Positions 28,787 through 33,118 of a stretch of DNA of 64,000 nt are shown here, one piece after another. The DNA lies in NCBI GenBank assembly GCA_000018565.1, contig CP000875.1, positions 4,169,199 through 4,233,198 on the forward strand. Reading direction: 5' to 3'. The notes beneath the pieces are model-generated. The model was not told where the DNA came from. It ran no database searches and saw only the letters and a list, made by a program, of their open reading frames with translations. Position 1 is the first letter of the stretch, and every line of letters begins with the position of its first letter. The translations under genes and the position numbers were made by a program. The stretch is from Herpetosiphon aurantiacus DSM 785 (lineage in GTDB: Bacteria; Chloroflexota; Chloroflexia; Chloroflexales; Herpetosiphonaceae).

Positions 28787-29569
28787 CTAGCCGCGCAATA
28801 ACGATTGGCCACCATCGATCCAGATTTCCGTGCCCGTGATATGGCTGGCTGCATCGGAAGCCAAAAAGCCGACTAATTGCGCCACTTGTTCGGCTGTGCC
28901 TGGTTGACCATGGGTCAGGGGAATATCGCCCTCAGGAAATTCGGCGGGCACGGCCACCGTTTCAATTGCCCGTTTTTCAGTGCTTTCGTCGATGCTGGTT
29001 TCAATCGCCCCTGGGCAAATAACGTTCACGCGAATCTTAAATTGGGCTAGTTCTAAGGCCAGCATTTTGGCCATAGCCACTTGACCAGCCTTGGTGGTCG
29101 AGTAGGCGGTCGCACCCACATTGCTAAATGTACGAGTTCCATTGATCGATGAGGTAATGATAATTGCGCCACCCTGCTTTTTGAGCGCCGGTACTGTTGT
29201 TTGCAGCGTTAAGAAGGTACCAGTTAAATTAATGTTTAACGTGTTCTGCCATTCTTCCAAGCTCAATTGCTCAATTGGTGCCCAAACGCCGTTAATCCCA
29301 GCATTGGCAAAGACACAATTGAGCTTGCCCCATGTTTCGAGCATTTGATCAACAGCAGCTTGCAGCTCATCGGGCTGCGTAATATCGGCAATTAAGGCCA
29401 ATGCGTCGCCGCCCGCCCGCTGAATCGTCTCAACAGTTTCGGTCAATTCATCTTCAGTCCGCCCAAGTGCGGCAACGTTTGCACCATGCGCCGCTAAATA
29501 TAAGGCCGTGGCCTTGCCAATGCCCGAGCCAGCCCCAGTGATTAAGGCCACAGTATTACGCAAATTCAT
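28787..29569 (-). CDS. Short-chain dehydrogenase/reductase
   Basis: A 260-residue classical SDR. The N-terminal ALITGAGSGIGKATAL binds NAD(P); NAGINGV, the catalytic serine in IITSSINGT and the YSTTKAG active-site Tyr/Lys are all present. It ends with the usual GTEIWIDGGQS. GAAGGAGC upstream fixes the start at 29569. The substrate is unknown. It is divergent from the arsenic operon, with 172 bases between starts, and a role in arsenic metabolism is not indicated. Confidence 0.93.
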   Translation of the reverse strand: MNLRNTVALITGAGSGIGKATALYLAAHGANVAALGRTEDELTETVETIQRAGGDALALIADITQPDELQAAVDQMLETWGKLNCVFANAGINGVWAPIEQLSLEEWQNTLNINLTGTFLTLQTTVPALKKQGGAIIITSSINGTRTFSNVGATAYSTTKAGQVAMAKMLALELAQFKIRVNVICPGAIETSIDESTEKRAIETVAVPAEFPEGDIPLTHGQPGTAEQVAQLVGFLASDAASHITGTEIWIDGGQSLLRG

Positions 29570-29674
29570 GCGAATGCTCCTTCCTTCAGTTCACAATCCT
29601 TGCAATCAGCCAATGCAAGTTGTGTGCTCAGAATCAAGAAAAATCGATGCGCCAGCATCCATCAACATTCATAC

Positions 29675-29718
29675 TTGCTTTTTTGCAATATCGCCAATAT
29701 ACTTCAAAATAATTTGAA
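29675..29718 (+). promoter_or_regulatory. Arsenic operon promoter with candidate ArsR operator
   Basis: TTGCTT (29675-29680), 17 bases, TATACT (29698-29703) is a fair promoter. TTCAAA-ATAA-TTTGAA (29703-29718) is a 6-4-6 inverted repeat overlapping the end of the -10 and the start site, where an ArsR repressor would block transcription. The binding itself is inferred from position and the encoded ArsR domain. Confidence 0.5.
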
Positions 29719-29741
29719 ACAATTTAATTTGGAGTGTTTTT

Positions 29742-30515
29742 ATGCAAAGTCTTGGGCTTGAACCACCTGTTGTGCTCAAATTGCTATCGCACGATCTCCG
29801 TTGGCGCTTGTTACAACTTTTAGTCCATAGTGATTATCGGGTGCATGAATGTGTGGCGGCCTTGCAAGCACCAATGAATGTGGTTTCCTATCATTTACGG
29901 CTACTACGCGAAGCCGCCTTGGTGATCGAACGCCGCAGCGAAGCCGATGGCCGTGATGTCTATTACCATCTCGATTTGCCAAGCTTGCAAACCGCCTACC
30001 AAGCGAGTGCCCAAGCCCTGCACCCTGATCTTGATCCATTTGCCGCCAAAACCACCAGCCAAGCCTATCAACTTAGCAAACCAGTGCGGATTTTATATTT
30101 GTGCACCCACAACAGTGCTCGCTCACAGTTGGCCGAGGCAATTACCCGCCATCTCGGTGGCTCCATGCTTGATGTAGTGAGCGCCGGAACCCAACCTGCC
30201 GAGGTGAATCCTTTGGTCTTAGCTACTTTGGAAGAAAAAAAGATTTCGAGTGCTGGCCTGTATTCCAAGACACTCCAGCCTTACCTTGAGCAAGATTTCG
30301 ATTATGTGATTACGGTCTGCGATCGCGCTCGTGAACAATGCCCAACGCTTGCTGGCCATCCCACCAGCATGCACTGGAGTTTTGCCGACCCGCTGCGTGA
30401 AACCAGCGAACTAGCCCAAGCTGCCACAATTGAAACCACCGCCCAGCAACTGATGACGCGCATTCGCTTTTTGCTGACCACAATCGAGCGCCAACAACGT
30501 GAAGGGAGCAAATAA
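29742..30515 (+). CDS. ArsR regulator fused to thioredoxin-type arsenate reductase (ArsC)
   Basis: The 257-residue protein has an ArsR winged helix (about residues 8-95) and a low-molecular-weight-phosphatase ArsC domain (115-250). The reductase shows the C121-x5-R127 loop (LCTHNSARS) and the resolving pair C193 and C200 ([13 protein letters not shown]), the full triad of thioredoxin-coupled ArsC, which turns arsenate to arsenite. The ArsR helix 3, normally ELCVCDL, reads HECVAAL with one cysteine. It should repress its own operon. The stop overlaps the next start (TAATG). Confidence 0.88.
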
Positions 30516-31528
30516 TGGCTTTACGAATTGGCATTAATGGCTTTGGGCGCATGGGGCGGCTCGCATTACGGGCTGGCTGGAATCGCCCAGGATTTGAATG
30601 GGTGCATATCAACGAACTCAAAGGCGATGCTGCAACCGCCGCCCATTTACTGGCTTTTGATTCAGTTCATGGCCGCTGGAATCATGGAGTCTCATCGCAA
30701 GAGCAAGCCCTGATGATCGAGCAACAACGCCTGAGTTATAGCAATCATTCAACAATTGAAGCAACCGATTGGGCTAGCCATGAGGTTGATCTGGTGCTGG
30801 AATGCTCAGGCAAATTTCGTAGCCCAGAGCAACTAGCTGGCTATTTTGCGGCTGGAGTTAAAACCGTGATCGTTGCCGCACCCGTAAAACAGGGTGCACT
30901 CAACATCGTGATGGGAGTTAATGATCAGCTTTATGATCCGCAGCAGCATCGTTTATTAACTGCCGCCTCGTGCACCACCAATTGTTTAGCGCCCATTGTC
31001 AAAGTTGTGCATGAACAATTCGGCATTAAGCATGGCATGATCACCACAATTCACGATATGACCAATACCCAAAATCTGATCGATGCACCGCACAAAGATT
31101 TACGCCGTGCCCGCGCCGCCAGCCAATCGCTGATTCCTACCAGCACAGGCTCAGCCAGCGCAATTGGCATGATCTTTCCAGAATTAGCAGGTCGTTTGGA
31201 TGGTGTGGCGATTCGCGTGCCTTTGTTGAATGCCTCGCTGACCGATTGTGTCTTTGAATTGGCCCAACCAACCACCAGTGAAGCGGTTAATCGGGCTTTG
31301 GCGGAGGCTAGTCGCGGAGCGCTCAAAGACATTTTGGGCTATGAAGAACGGCCCTTAGTTTCAGTCGATTACAAGGGCGATCCACGTTCGGCGATTATCG
31401 ATGCAGCGCTGACGACCGTTACCAACCAAACTCAATTGAAAATTATGGCTTGGTACGACAACGAAATTGGCTATGTGAATCGAATGTTGGAGCTAGCCGC
31501 TAAGGTCGCCCAACTTCAGGCGGGCTAG
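30515..31528 (+). CDS. ArsJ-associated glyceraldehyde-3-phosphate dehydrogenase
   Basis: A 337-residue GAPDH. The Rossmann motif INGFGRMGR, active-site cysteine C153 in [11 protein letters not shown] and [12 protein letters not shown] are visible. Its place between an ArsC fusion and ArsJ is typical of the arsenate pathway in which this enzyme forms unstable 1-arseno-3-phosphoglycerate from glyceraldehyde-3-phosphate and arsenate for export. A glycolytic duty cannot be excluded but is unlikely here. It overlaps the ArsR-ArsC stop by one base and lies nine bases before arsJ. Confidence 0.92.
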
Positions 31529-31537
31529 GAGCCGACT

Positions 31538-32773
31538 ATGCAGCAACAATTCAAAGAGTATGCGATTGTTACCGCCGCTTATTGGGCCTTTACATTGACC
31601 GATGGCGCGTTGCGTATGTTGGTCTTGTTTCATTTTCATCAACTTGGCTATAGTGCCTTGGCGGTGGCGGCGCTCTTTATTTTCTATGAAGTATTTGGGG
31701 TGATTACCAATTTGTTTGGTGGCTGGCTGGGCGCACGCTTTGGCCTGAATCGCACCTTACATGCTGGCTTGGTGTTACAAGTTATCGCTTTGGGCATGAT
31801 GGTTGTGCCCAGTGCTTGGCTCAGCGTGACATATGTGATGCTAGCGCAAGCTGGCTCGGGCATCGCCAAAGATCTGACCAAAATGAGTGCCAAGAGCAGC
31901 ATCAAAATGTTGGTGGCTGAAGATGCTCAATCAACTTTGTTCAAATGGGTAGCTATTTTGACTGGCTCGAAAAATGCGCTCAAAGGTGTGGGCTTTTTCT
32001 TGGGCAGCCTATTGCTGAGCACCATTGGCTTTCGCAGTGCCTTCGCTGTGCTTGCGAGTTTGATTGCCGTAGCTGCCATTGGCACATTCAGCTTTTTGCA
32101 ACACGATTTGGGGCGTAGCAAAGCCAAGCCGAAGTGGCAACAACTATTTGCCAAAAGCCGCGCGATCAATCTGCTTTCAGCAGCGCGTTGTTTTTTGTTT
32201 GCAGCGCGGGATGTCTGGTTTGTGGTCGGCTTGCCAGTTTTTCTGAGTGAAGTGCTTGGCTGGTCGTTTTGGCAGGCTGGCGGCTATTTGGCCTTATGGG
32301 TGATTGGCTATGGCCTGATTCAAGCGCTTGCGCCAGCGATTACCCGCCGCTGGCAAGCCACGCCCAACGGCTGGGCTGCAACAATTTTGGCTGGCTTGTT
32401 GATGCTGATTATGGCTGCGATTGCCAGTGTTGTGCAAATCAACCAACAATCGGCTATCGTGGTTGTGGTCGGCTTAATTGGCTTTGGATTTATTTTTGCG
32501 CTGAATTCGGCAGTCCACTCCTACCTGATTTTAGCCTACACTGACCAAGCCGATGTGGCTTTGAATGTAGGTTTTTACTATATGGCCAACGCCTTGGGCC
32601 GCCTGCTTGGCACAATTCTTTCGGGTCTGCTGTATCAAAGCTATGGGTTGGCAGGCTGTTTATGGGCAGCGGCCTTACTGAGCGCAATCACAGCCGTGAT
32701 CTCGTTGAGCTTGCCGCGTGTGCCAAACCAACCGCTGTTGGGCGAACAGCAGGCCAAAGCTAGCTCGATCTGA
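31538..32773 (+). CDS. arsJ: ArsJ, MFS organoarsenical efflux permease
   Basis: The 411-residue, 12-helix MFS protein starts with FKEYAIVTAAYWAFTLTDGA, the ArsJ-like N-terminal signature, and GWLGARFGLN corresponds to the MFS loop 2-3 motif. It exports 1-arseno-3-phosphoglycerate made by the preceding GAPDH. The three-gene order matches known arsenate-resistance operons. No methyltransferase or arsenite pump (ArsB/Acr3) is adjacent, so arsenite made by the ArsC domain needs an exporter elsewhere. Confidence 0.9.
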   Translation: MQQQFKEYAIVTAAYWAFTLTDGALRMLVLFHFHQLGYSALAVAALFIFYEVFGVITNLFGGWLGARFGLNRTLHAGLVLQVIALGMMVVPSAWLSVTYVMLAQAGSGIAKDLTKMSAKSSIKMLVAEDAQSTLFKWVAILTGSKNALKGVGFFLGSLLLSTIGFRSAFAVLASLIAVAAIGTFSFLQHDLGRSKAKPKWQQLFAKSRAINLLSAARCFLFAARDVWFVVGLPVFLSEVLGWSFWQAGGYLALWVIGYGLIQALAPAITRRWQATPNGWAATILAGLLMLIMAAIASVVQINQQSAIVVVVGLIGFGFIFALNSAVHSYLILAYTDQADVALNVGFYYMANALGRLLGTILSGLLYQSYGLAGCLWAAALLSAITAVISLSLPRVPNQPLLGEQQAKASSI

Positions 32774-32796
32774 GCAGAATGGAACCAAATTGCTAC

Positions 32797-32857
32797 TTGT
32801 AAGTTGGCCTGAATCTACTACAATAGAGCTAAGCAAGCGATCGTGGTAGATACCACG
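32797..32857 (+). promoter_or_regulatory. Promoter and downstream palindrome for the small LEA-like gene
   Basis: TTGTAA (32797-32802), 16 bases, TACAAT (32819-32824). A perfect inverted repeat CGTGGTA-GA-TACCACG (32842-32857) lies about ten bases after the predicted start site and just before the CGGAGGA ribosome site. It may be an operator or an mRNA hairpin. Confidence 0.55.
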
Positions 32858-32878
32858 TGGCATTTCGGAGGAAACCCC

Positions 32879-33118
32879 ATGACTGATAATGAACCAGGGT
32901 TTTTCGAAAATTTGGTTGATAAAGCCAAGGATGTCGCCGAGTCGGTTGGTGAATTTATCGGCGATGCCGCTGAAAAAGCGGGCGATCTAGCCGAACAAGC
33001 TGCCGAAAAAATTAGTGATGTTGCCGAAGTCGTCGGCGATAAAGCCAGCGATGTGTATGAAGCCGCCAAAGATAAATTGGGCATCGACGGCGACGAAGCT
33101 CCTCCGCCAGCCGCCTAG
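32879..33118 (+). CDS. Small LEA-like amphipathic helix protein
   Basis: A 79-residue, strongly acidic protein with repeated 11-residue units in the middle (KAKDVAESVGE, KAGDLAEQAAE, KISDVAEVVGD, KASDVYEAAKD), predicting one long amphipathic helix. Composition matches the larger LEA-like protein at 12451, without its membrane segment. CGGAGGA fixes the start at 32879. A protective role under stress is inferred. It stands alone between its own promoter and a clear terminator. Confidence 0.75.
   Translation: MTDNEPGFFENLVDKAKDVAESVGEFIGDAAEKAGDLAEQAAEKISDVAEVVGDKASDVYEAAKDKLGIDGDEAPPPAA

Follow-up and report, generated by a model that had tools for sequence, protein, structure and literature searches.

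The locus and its putative operator

The DNA analyzed here, hereafter the window, is a 64,000-nucleotide (64-kb) stretch of Herpetosiphon aurantiacus DSM 785. It forms part of contig C1 of a genome of 6,785,430 bases in three contigs. At positions 29742-32773 on its + strand, with open reading frame (ORF) coordinates that we verified, a fusion of an ArsR-type repressor to an ArsC-type arsenate reductase domain is followed by an ArsJ-associated glyceraldehyde-3-phosphate dehydrogenase (GAPDH) and by the exporter ArsJ. The features are as follows.

29703..29718, no strand: putative ArsR-type operator, the palindrome TTCAAAATAATTTGAA, 23 bp 5' of the fusion's ATG
29742..30515, + strand: ArsR-ArsC fusion, 257 amino acids; winged helix at about residues 10-93, a linker, and an ArsC domain of low-molecular-weight (LMW) protein tyrosine phosphatase fold at about 115-257, with C121, C193 and C200
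30515..31528, + strand: ArsJ-associated GAPDH, 337 amino acids; 547.8 bits against NF033735
31538..32773, + strand: ArsJ, an exporter of the major facilitator superfamily, 411 amino acids; 577.7 bits against NF033734

The ATG of the GAPDH gene overlaps the stop codon of the fusion gene by one base, and nine bases separate GAPDH from ArsJ; with this spacing, the three genes very probably constitute one operon. The initial annotation had placed two arsenate-handling modules in a single operon with no arsenite exporter adjoining it. Both statements were borne out: the ORFs are as described, GAPDH and ArsJ score above their curated cut-offs (450 bits for NF033735, “ArsJ-associated GAPDH”, and 400 bits for NF033734), and no such exporter adjoins the operon. 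The GAPDH carries the motif SCTTNC, which we take to be that of the GAPDH active site. From what is known of these families, the enzyme is predicted to make 1-arseno-3-phosphoglycerate (1As3PG), which ArsJ would export.

A second GAPDH is encoded elsewhere in the genome, at C1:6004951. In Herpetosiphon llansteffanensis (G043; L068:6831-6915), the operon's GAPDH has been deleted, only its first bases being left between the fusion and an intact ArsJ, and the whole genome contains one GAPDH match; the ArsJ of this species may work with the housekeeping enzyme.

The perfect palindrome TTCAAAATAATTTGAA upstream of the fusion is the sole occurrence of TTCAA-N6-TTGAA in the window; 0.14 would be expected, and 13 of 100 shuffled sequences contained one or more. 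Its core, TCAA-N6-TTGA, occurs exactly at -250 to +100 of 29 of the 80 fusion genes in the Chloroflexota set described below. The corresponding means were 0.3 in 200 mononucleotide shuffles and 0.5 in 200 first-order Markov resamples (maximum of three in each), and of 1957 control stretches taken at these loci, the window's own operon not being excluded, 16 contained the core. Because some ORF starts were called too far upstream, the distances are approximate. The motif also lies 5' of GAPDH in six fetched GAPDH-ArsJ loci that have no fusion (L138-L143), exactly in two and with one mismatch, which is weak when taken alone, in four. Since it is enriched before fusions and is found before fusion-less GAPDH-ArsJ pairs as well, it is a plausible ArsR-family site, and the palindrome is a candidate operator. 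A promoter scan of 29560-33000 returned three sites (3.7 expected), none of them 5' of the fusion; the same interval holds ten terminator-like sites (4.5 expected, standard deviation 2.3).

The fusion protein and its cysteines

Two Pfam domains were recognized in the fusion: an HTH_5 winged helix at residues 20-61 (24.9 bits; cut-off 22) and an LMWPc domain at residues 117-221 (50.9 bits; cut-off 23.2). The score against the equivalog model arsC_pI258 (TIGR02691), 78.8 bits, lies under the cut-off of 174.3, and the domain is therefore filed as ArsC-like only; the metalloregulator model NF033788 likewise scored below its cut-off (49.5 vs. 55 bits). A monomer model from AlphaFold2, computed with 40 aligned fusions, had a mean predicted local distance difference test score of 93.5 and a predicted template modeling score of 0.90. 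Its best Foldseek match was Deinococcus indicus ArsC2 with arsenate (8p5n, 40% identity). The catalytic cysteines of that enzyme are C15, C87 and C94 (PMC10483234), and the spacings of 72 and 7 residues are those of C121, C193 and C200 in the fusion, whose P-loop reads CTHNSARS.

On inspection of the sequence, the three cysteines fall where the initial annotation had put them, and its further observation that HECVAAL replaces ELCVCDL in the ArsR part also stands. The only cysteine of that part, C37, lies inside HECVAAL. Four types of arsenite site are named in PMC11868830, and each comprises three cysteines within the ArsR part; the window fusion has no three-cysteine site of these types.

Is the missing thiol site peculiar to this protein? 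The Chloroflexota set, made up of the fusions among the listed matches that covered at least 200 query residues, holds 80 fusions from 73 loci, the window included; of the 80 stretches fetched for it, eight (L137-L144) had been chosen as ArsJ loci without a fusion. The catalytic triad is intact in 79 of the 80 proteins, that of the window among them, and loop residues N124, S125, R127 and S128 are present in all. The recognition-helix signature SYHL, found in the window fusion, is shared by 67. The C-x-C arsenite site, by contrast, occurs in none, so that its absence extends to the family: the ArsR core has no cysteine in 52 proteins, one in 27 and two in one, and a cysteine at position 37 is found in four. 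The exception to triad conservation is a divergent fusion without C200 (L145:3525-6504, genome G134), which sits beside an ArsJ-like gene scoring 353.6 bits against the cut-off of 400; this is perhaps a decaying or redirected copy.

A second set, taken from the best 80 loci in named genomes (L146-L225), contains 73 fusions, 12 of which are proteins of the first set. Actinomycetota contribute 38, Chloroflexota 27, Pseudomonadota six and Dormiibacterota two. Here the triad is intact in 65 of 73, and C-x-C is again absent throughout (0 of 73). An unfused neighbor pair from Deinococcus has an ArsR with C-x-C (C34, C36). At the position equivalent to residue 82, 33 of the 38 actinomycetotal fusions have a single cysteine, as do 2 of the other 35.

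The triad also persists where another ArsC is at hand: all 17 fusions with a free-standing ArsC gene no more than 3 kb away have it intact. In six loci of one family (f3: L101, L102, L106, L110, L111 and L117), two tandem fusions lie 5' of GAPDH-ArsJ. In every pair, the recognition helix is degenerate in the copy nearer to GAPDH and has SYHL in the upstream copy, and both copies retain the triad. A copy competent to bind DNA that keeps a full catalytic center next to another complete one fits a sensing function; it could also reflect gene dosage. Locus L118 also has two fusions before GAPDH-ArsJ, in this case divergent ones, and its GAPDH-proximal copy likewise has a degenerate DNA-recognition helix.

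Partner genes and recurrence of the fusion

ArsJ scored above its cut-off in 32 of 400 genomes of the phylum, every one from the taxonomic order of the window. A fusion adjoins it in at least 15 of these 32, part of whose loci were fetched, and in G134, where the ArsJ-like gene is under the cut-off. Within 6 kb of the fusion, ArsJ is present at 16 of the 73 Chloroflexota loci, Acr3 at three and neither at 54. Where ArsJ is present, the fusion lies 5' of GAPDH/ArsJ on the same strand in 12 cases and is only divergent in four. At 15 loci, including two from Herpetosiphon and one from Ktedonobacter, there is a member of a gene cluster whose scanned representative, located just 3' of the fusion, is an aquaglyceroporin (one representative of each neighbor gene cluster was scanned by Pfam). 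All four ArsJ-bearing genomes of the genus (G000, G274, G078 and G043) have no aquaglyceroporin; in G034, G102 and the family relative G070, ArsJ is absent and an aquaglyceroporin gene lies directly beside the fusion. The exit, ArsJ or aquaglyceroporin, is thus swapped within the genus and the family.

Two further gene types were observed near fusions. A gene for a calcineurin-like phosphoesterase recurs near those with aquaglyceroporin or Acr3 (L070:6865-7590; also L071, L072, L073 and L083), and at L086:6776-8026 a chromate-transporter family gene lies directly 3' of the fusion, hinting at another oxyanion exit.

The operon is not unique to the window, an idea that we rejected: it is found in other Chloroflexales and in Rhodobacterales and other Alphaproteobacteria, so that it recurs in two phyla. 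With the window fusion as query, a plasmid search brought up pDE of Cereibacter sphaeroides 2.4.1, which has the same three genes. Two plasmid searches yielded 23 loci that were opened (13 of 40 listed rows and 10 of 60). Fused ArsR-ArsC with GAPDH and ArsJ is present at 13 of them, from Cereibacter, Rhodobacter (two), Paracoccus (three), Pseudooceanicola, Aliiroseovarius, Leisingera, Ruegeria, Phaeobacter, Pseudosulfitobacter and Tistrella; four are fused with no ArsJ in view, five are unfused, and one (L228), with no ArsC annotated, was not used. Acr3 is in view before or after ArsJ at three of the 13, and at one more it is preceded by its own ArsR. In Hydrogenophaga sp. BPS33, GAPDH, ArsJ, ArsR, ArsC and Acr3 form a single row.

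A single origin of all the fused ArsC domains was rejected by the approximately unbiased (AU) test (p-AU = 9.6e-48; 62 domains, of which 45 are fused and 17 unfused). In the tree of these domains, the alphaproteobacterial fused ones group with unfused arsR-arsC pairs. Because the fused domains are not one clade, fusion arose, or was undone, several times.

What became of the arsenite site in these lineages? Unfused ArsRs beside ArsC and Acr3 keep a C-terminal CC..C site at all four alpha- and betaproteobacterial loci, Hydrogenophaga, which also has ArsJ, among them. The site has been lost from seven of the 13 ArsJ-linked plasmid fusions, two of which retain one cysteine; all three cysteines of the ArsC triad are present in each of the 15 fused proteins in the plasmid comparison. 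From a sample of 385 alphaproteobacterial genomes, we examined 20 near-full-length loci of 30 fetched. Fourteen parsed as fused; the other six did not parse as a fused ORF and were not counted, and three of these (L279, L280 and L282) show GAPDH and ArsJ. Flanks were 1.5 kb, so that “without ArsJ” here means none within that distance. In the eight fusions with GAPDH/ArsJ in view, the CC..C site is lost in three, partial in one and kept in four; all six without them keep it. When the two alphaproteobacterial sets are pooled, the site is lost in 9 of 20 ArsJ-linked fusions and in none of the eight others (Fisher p = 0.029, with kinship ignored); a Tistrella plasmid present in both sets was counted once, and two Arthrobacter-type fusions were left out. 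As a general rule, that ArsR cysteine loss follows ArsJ was rejected: it is a trend in Alphaproteobacteria only, and in the Chloroflexota set C-x-C is missing beside every kind of exit.

Arsenic exits and possible modes of derepression

The initial annotation had called for a genome-wide search for Acr3. No match to TIGR00832 was found in the whole genome; the same search was positive in 7 of 14 control genomes. Nor was there a match to the aquaglyceroporin family (PF00230) anywhere in the genome. One divergent ArsB-like protein (PF02040, 180.8 bits) is encoded at C1:5792693-5793907, 1.6 Mb from the operon, among an esterase gene, an Asp23-like gene and genes with no arsenic links. Its scores are far under the ArsB cut-offs (257 vs. 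457 bits for PRK15445; 224 vs. 415 for TIGR00935). The gene is present in all six Herpetosiphon genomes searched, ArsJ-bearing or not, and was not found in the family relative G070. Its product could export arsenite from outside this operon. Acr3 is encoded, on a different contig, in one (G078) of the other three Herpetosiphon genomes with ArsJ; given these two candidates, an arsenite exit may exist. Two other genes of the LMW-phosphatase family (141.9 and 33.2 bits) are present in the H. aurantiacus genome, and the fusion matches neither at E <= 1e-3; ArsC models were not run on these two, and glutaredoxin-type ArsC was not searched.

How might such a repressor release its operator? Well-studied ArsRs sense arsenite, and a cell that exports arsenate through ArsJ need not make any. 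Because the ArsR part has no thiol arsenite site, derepression would most likely proceed through the ArsC domain. We read the locus as an autoregulated arsenate-resistance operon controlled in this way, and we give that reading somewhat less than an even chance. The fusion would occupy the promoter of its own gene at TTCAA-N6-TTGAA, as the palindrome's position and conservation suggest, and would repress itself, GAPDH and ArsJ. Incoming arsenate would be converted by GAPDH to 1As3PG, which would leave through ArsJ. Binding of arsenate at C121, or a disulfide joining C193 and C200 after a single turnover, would change the ArsR dimer such that it releases the DNA. The ArsC domain may also reduce arsenate, and the pathway would depend on this reaction in relatives whose fusion adjoins an aquaglyceroporin or Acr3; the two arsenate routes may compete, as the initial annotation stated. 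As the only candidate arsenite exit found in this genome is the unlinked ArsB-like protein, reductase chemistry may matter here mainly for sensing. The idea, raised in the initial annotation, that the ArsC domain serves as the arsenic sensor fits the comparative data. In its favor are the conserved triad, kept also near a second ArsC gene and in the tandem copies with SYHL, the absence of C-x-C, the loss of the CC..C site from about half of the ArsJ-linked alphaproteobacterial plasmid fusions, the swap of exits among close relatives, and the precedents for arsenate sensing by an ArsR in Thermus (PMC5658604) and, as suggested, in V. cholerae (PMC9601151). We propose only tentatively the wider statement that DNA binding by the fused ArsR is set at the ArsC active site, either by bound arsenate or by the redox state of C193-C200, and that this arrangement evolved more than once and can drive ArsJ, aquaglyceroporin and Acr3 exits.

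Several of the parts are known already, namely ArsR-ArsC fusions, GAPDH-ArsJ pairs, an ArsJ operon with an altered ArsR, and an arsenate-preferring ArsR; searches of the open-access literature turned up no paper on an ArsR-ArsC fusion with ArsJ or on ArsC as a sensor. The GAPDH-ArsJ pairs of Pseudomonas aeruginosa DK2 and Halomonas GFAJ-1 (mfs2-gapdh) are adjacent as in the window, whose pair differs in being headed by the fusion. Halomonas GFAJ-1 is reported to have no arsenate reduction genes (PMC5930303). Fusions of the same two proteins from Leptospirillum, Microbacterium, Sinorhizobium and Actinobacteria (PMC6205960, PMC6514093) are described, in the available text of those reports, with no link to ArsJ and no discussion of the missing arsenite site. 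Roseiflexus sp. RS-1 ArsJ is mentioned in the accessible portion of PMC13171826, without the fusion. The rhodobacteral loci annotated “ArsR/SmtB”-GAPDH-ArsJ (e.g., pDE of C. sphaeroides 2.4.1) have three genes in the same order; their fusion is 33% identical to that of the window, with an ArsC domain of separate origin and an ArsR of the C-terminal CC..C type. The var operon of Vibrio cholerae (arsR-varG-varH-arsJ) resembles the window in having an altered-motif ArsR, GAPDH and ArsJ with no arsenite exporter in the operon, and differs in that VarH, a dual-specificity-type phosphatase, takes the place of the fused ArsC, the V. cholerae ArsC being unlinked and inactive (PMC9601151). We looked for a VarH equivalent between the window's GAPDH and ArsJ and dismissed it, as only the nine intergenic bases lie there. 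Finally, TtSmtB of Thermus thermophilus, like the ArsR part of the fusion, has one of the three arsenite cysteines, and arsenate is its better effector; it differs in being a stand-alone protein with no fused ArsC, and its targets are an efflux gene and an ArsC gene that is not linked to it (PMC5658604).

A number of observations weigh against gating by the ArsC domain. Conservation of the triad is equally what an enzyme needs. Eight of the 73 named-genome fusions, all from Actinomycetota, lack the third triad cysteine, as do both Arthrobacter-type plasmid fusions. In Chloroflexota and Actinomycetota, the thiol loss also holds beside Acr3 and aquaglyceroporins, so that it follows fusion and not the exporter; at L247, the separate ArsR before Acr3 has three scattered cysteines with no recognizable arsenite site, and an in-locus contrast is absent there. 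Six of the 13 ArsJ-linked plasmid fusions of Alphaproteobacteria keep the CC..C site, and the nine alphaproteobacterial losses probably trace to few events. Exact copies of the operator core are lacking from 51 of the 80 fusions. Moreover, as the Thermus regulator prefers arsenate (PMC5658604) and the ArsR of the V. cholerae ArsJ operon is suggested to sense it (PMC9601151), ArsRs seem able to detect arsenate with no ArsC involved, and arsenate binding directly to the ArsR part would account for sensing equally well.

This last point underlies a plainer account, namely a bifunctional fusion in which ArsC, kept at the operon by being fused, is an enzyme only and arsenate or another ligand is recognized by the ArsR part itself, the two routes running in parallel with arsenite leaving through the ArsB-like protein. 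We regard it as a serious possibility of less than even probability. The intact triad (79 of 80) and invariant loop are as in active ArsC, the cysteine spacing is that of D. indicus ArsC2 (15/87/94; PMC10483234), TtSmtB sets a precedent for arsenate preference (PMC5658604), the ArsB-like gene is present in every Herpetosiphon genome searched, and both routes do coexist in Hydrogenophaga sp. BPS33. However, an enzymatic role alone would be redundant in the 17 fusions that keep the triad near an ArsC gene and in the tandem copies with an intact recognition helix, and the ArsB-like protein scores far below its cut-off (257 vs. 457 bits) and is encoded among unrelated genes.

It is also conceivable, albeit improbable, that the ArsC/LMW-phosphatase domain acts in the manner of VarH, splitting 1As3PG or otherwise managing the GAPDH product without reducing arsenate. 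The domain does have a phosphatase fold, and VarH, a cysteine phosphatase, accompanies ArsR, GAPDH and ArsJ in the var operon and lowers 1As3PG (PMC9601151). Yet VarH is of the dual-specificity class and is described in that article as rather exclusive to Vibrionaceae; the conserved redox pair C193/C200 would be needless for a phosphatase, and the same fusion is found with no adjoining GAPDH. We likewise consider it unlikely that sensing is classical, with arsenite made by ArsC being held by C37 together with thiols of ArsC or others to relieve repression. C37 does lie in the HECVAAL stretch, the place of the type-1 site in R773 ArsR, and a structure of an ArsC-arsenite complex exists (1lju). 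Nonetheless, position 37 is a cysteine in just four of the 80 relatives, and each of the arsenite sites named in PMC11868830 is built from three cysteines within the ArsR part.

Returning to control through the ArsC domain, ArsR has been joined to ArsC before GAPDH-ArsJ repeatedly and separately, which suggests selection for physical coupling of the repressor to an arsenate-binding enzyme. If the proposal is true, the fusion would be an enzyme-gated arsenate sensor, a one-component repressor with an arsenate reductase as its input module. According to PMC9601151, the way in which ArsJ operons detect arsenate is open even in V. cholerae; with no arsenite site and an intact reductase center, the fusions allow point mutations to address this question, and they may provide a natural biosensor for arsenate.

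Downstream of ArsJ, positions 32843-33118 of the window encode a small protein with a weak YtxH-like match (22 bits, under the cut-off). Relatives of this protein come after ArsJ in all four ArsJ-bearing Herpetosiphon loci.

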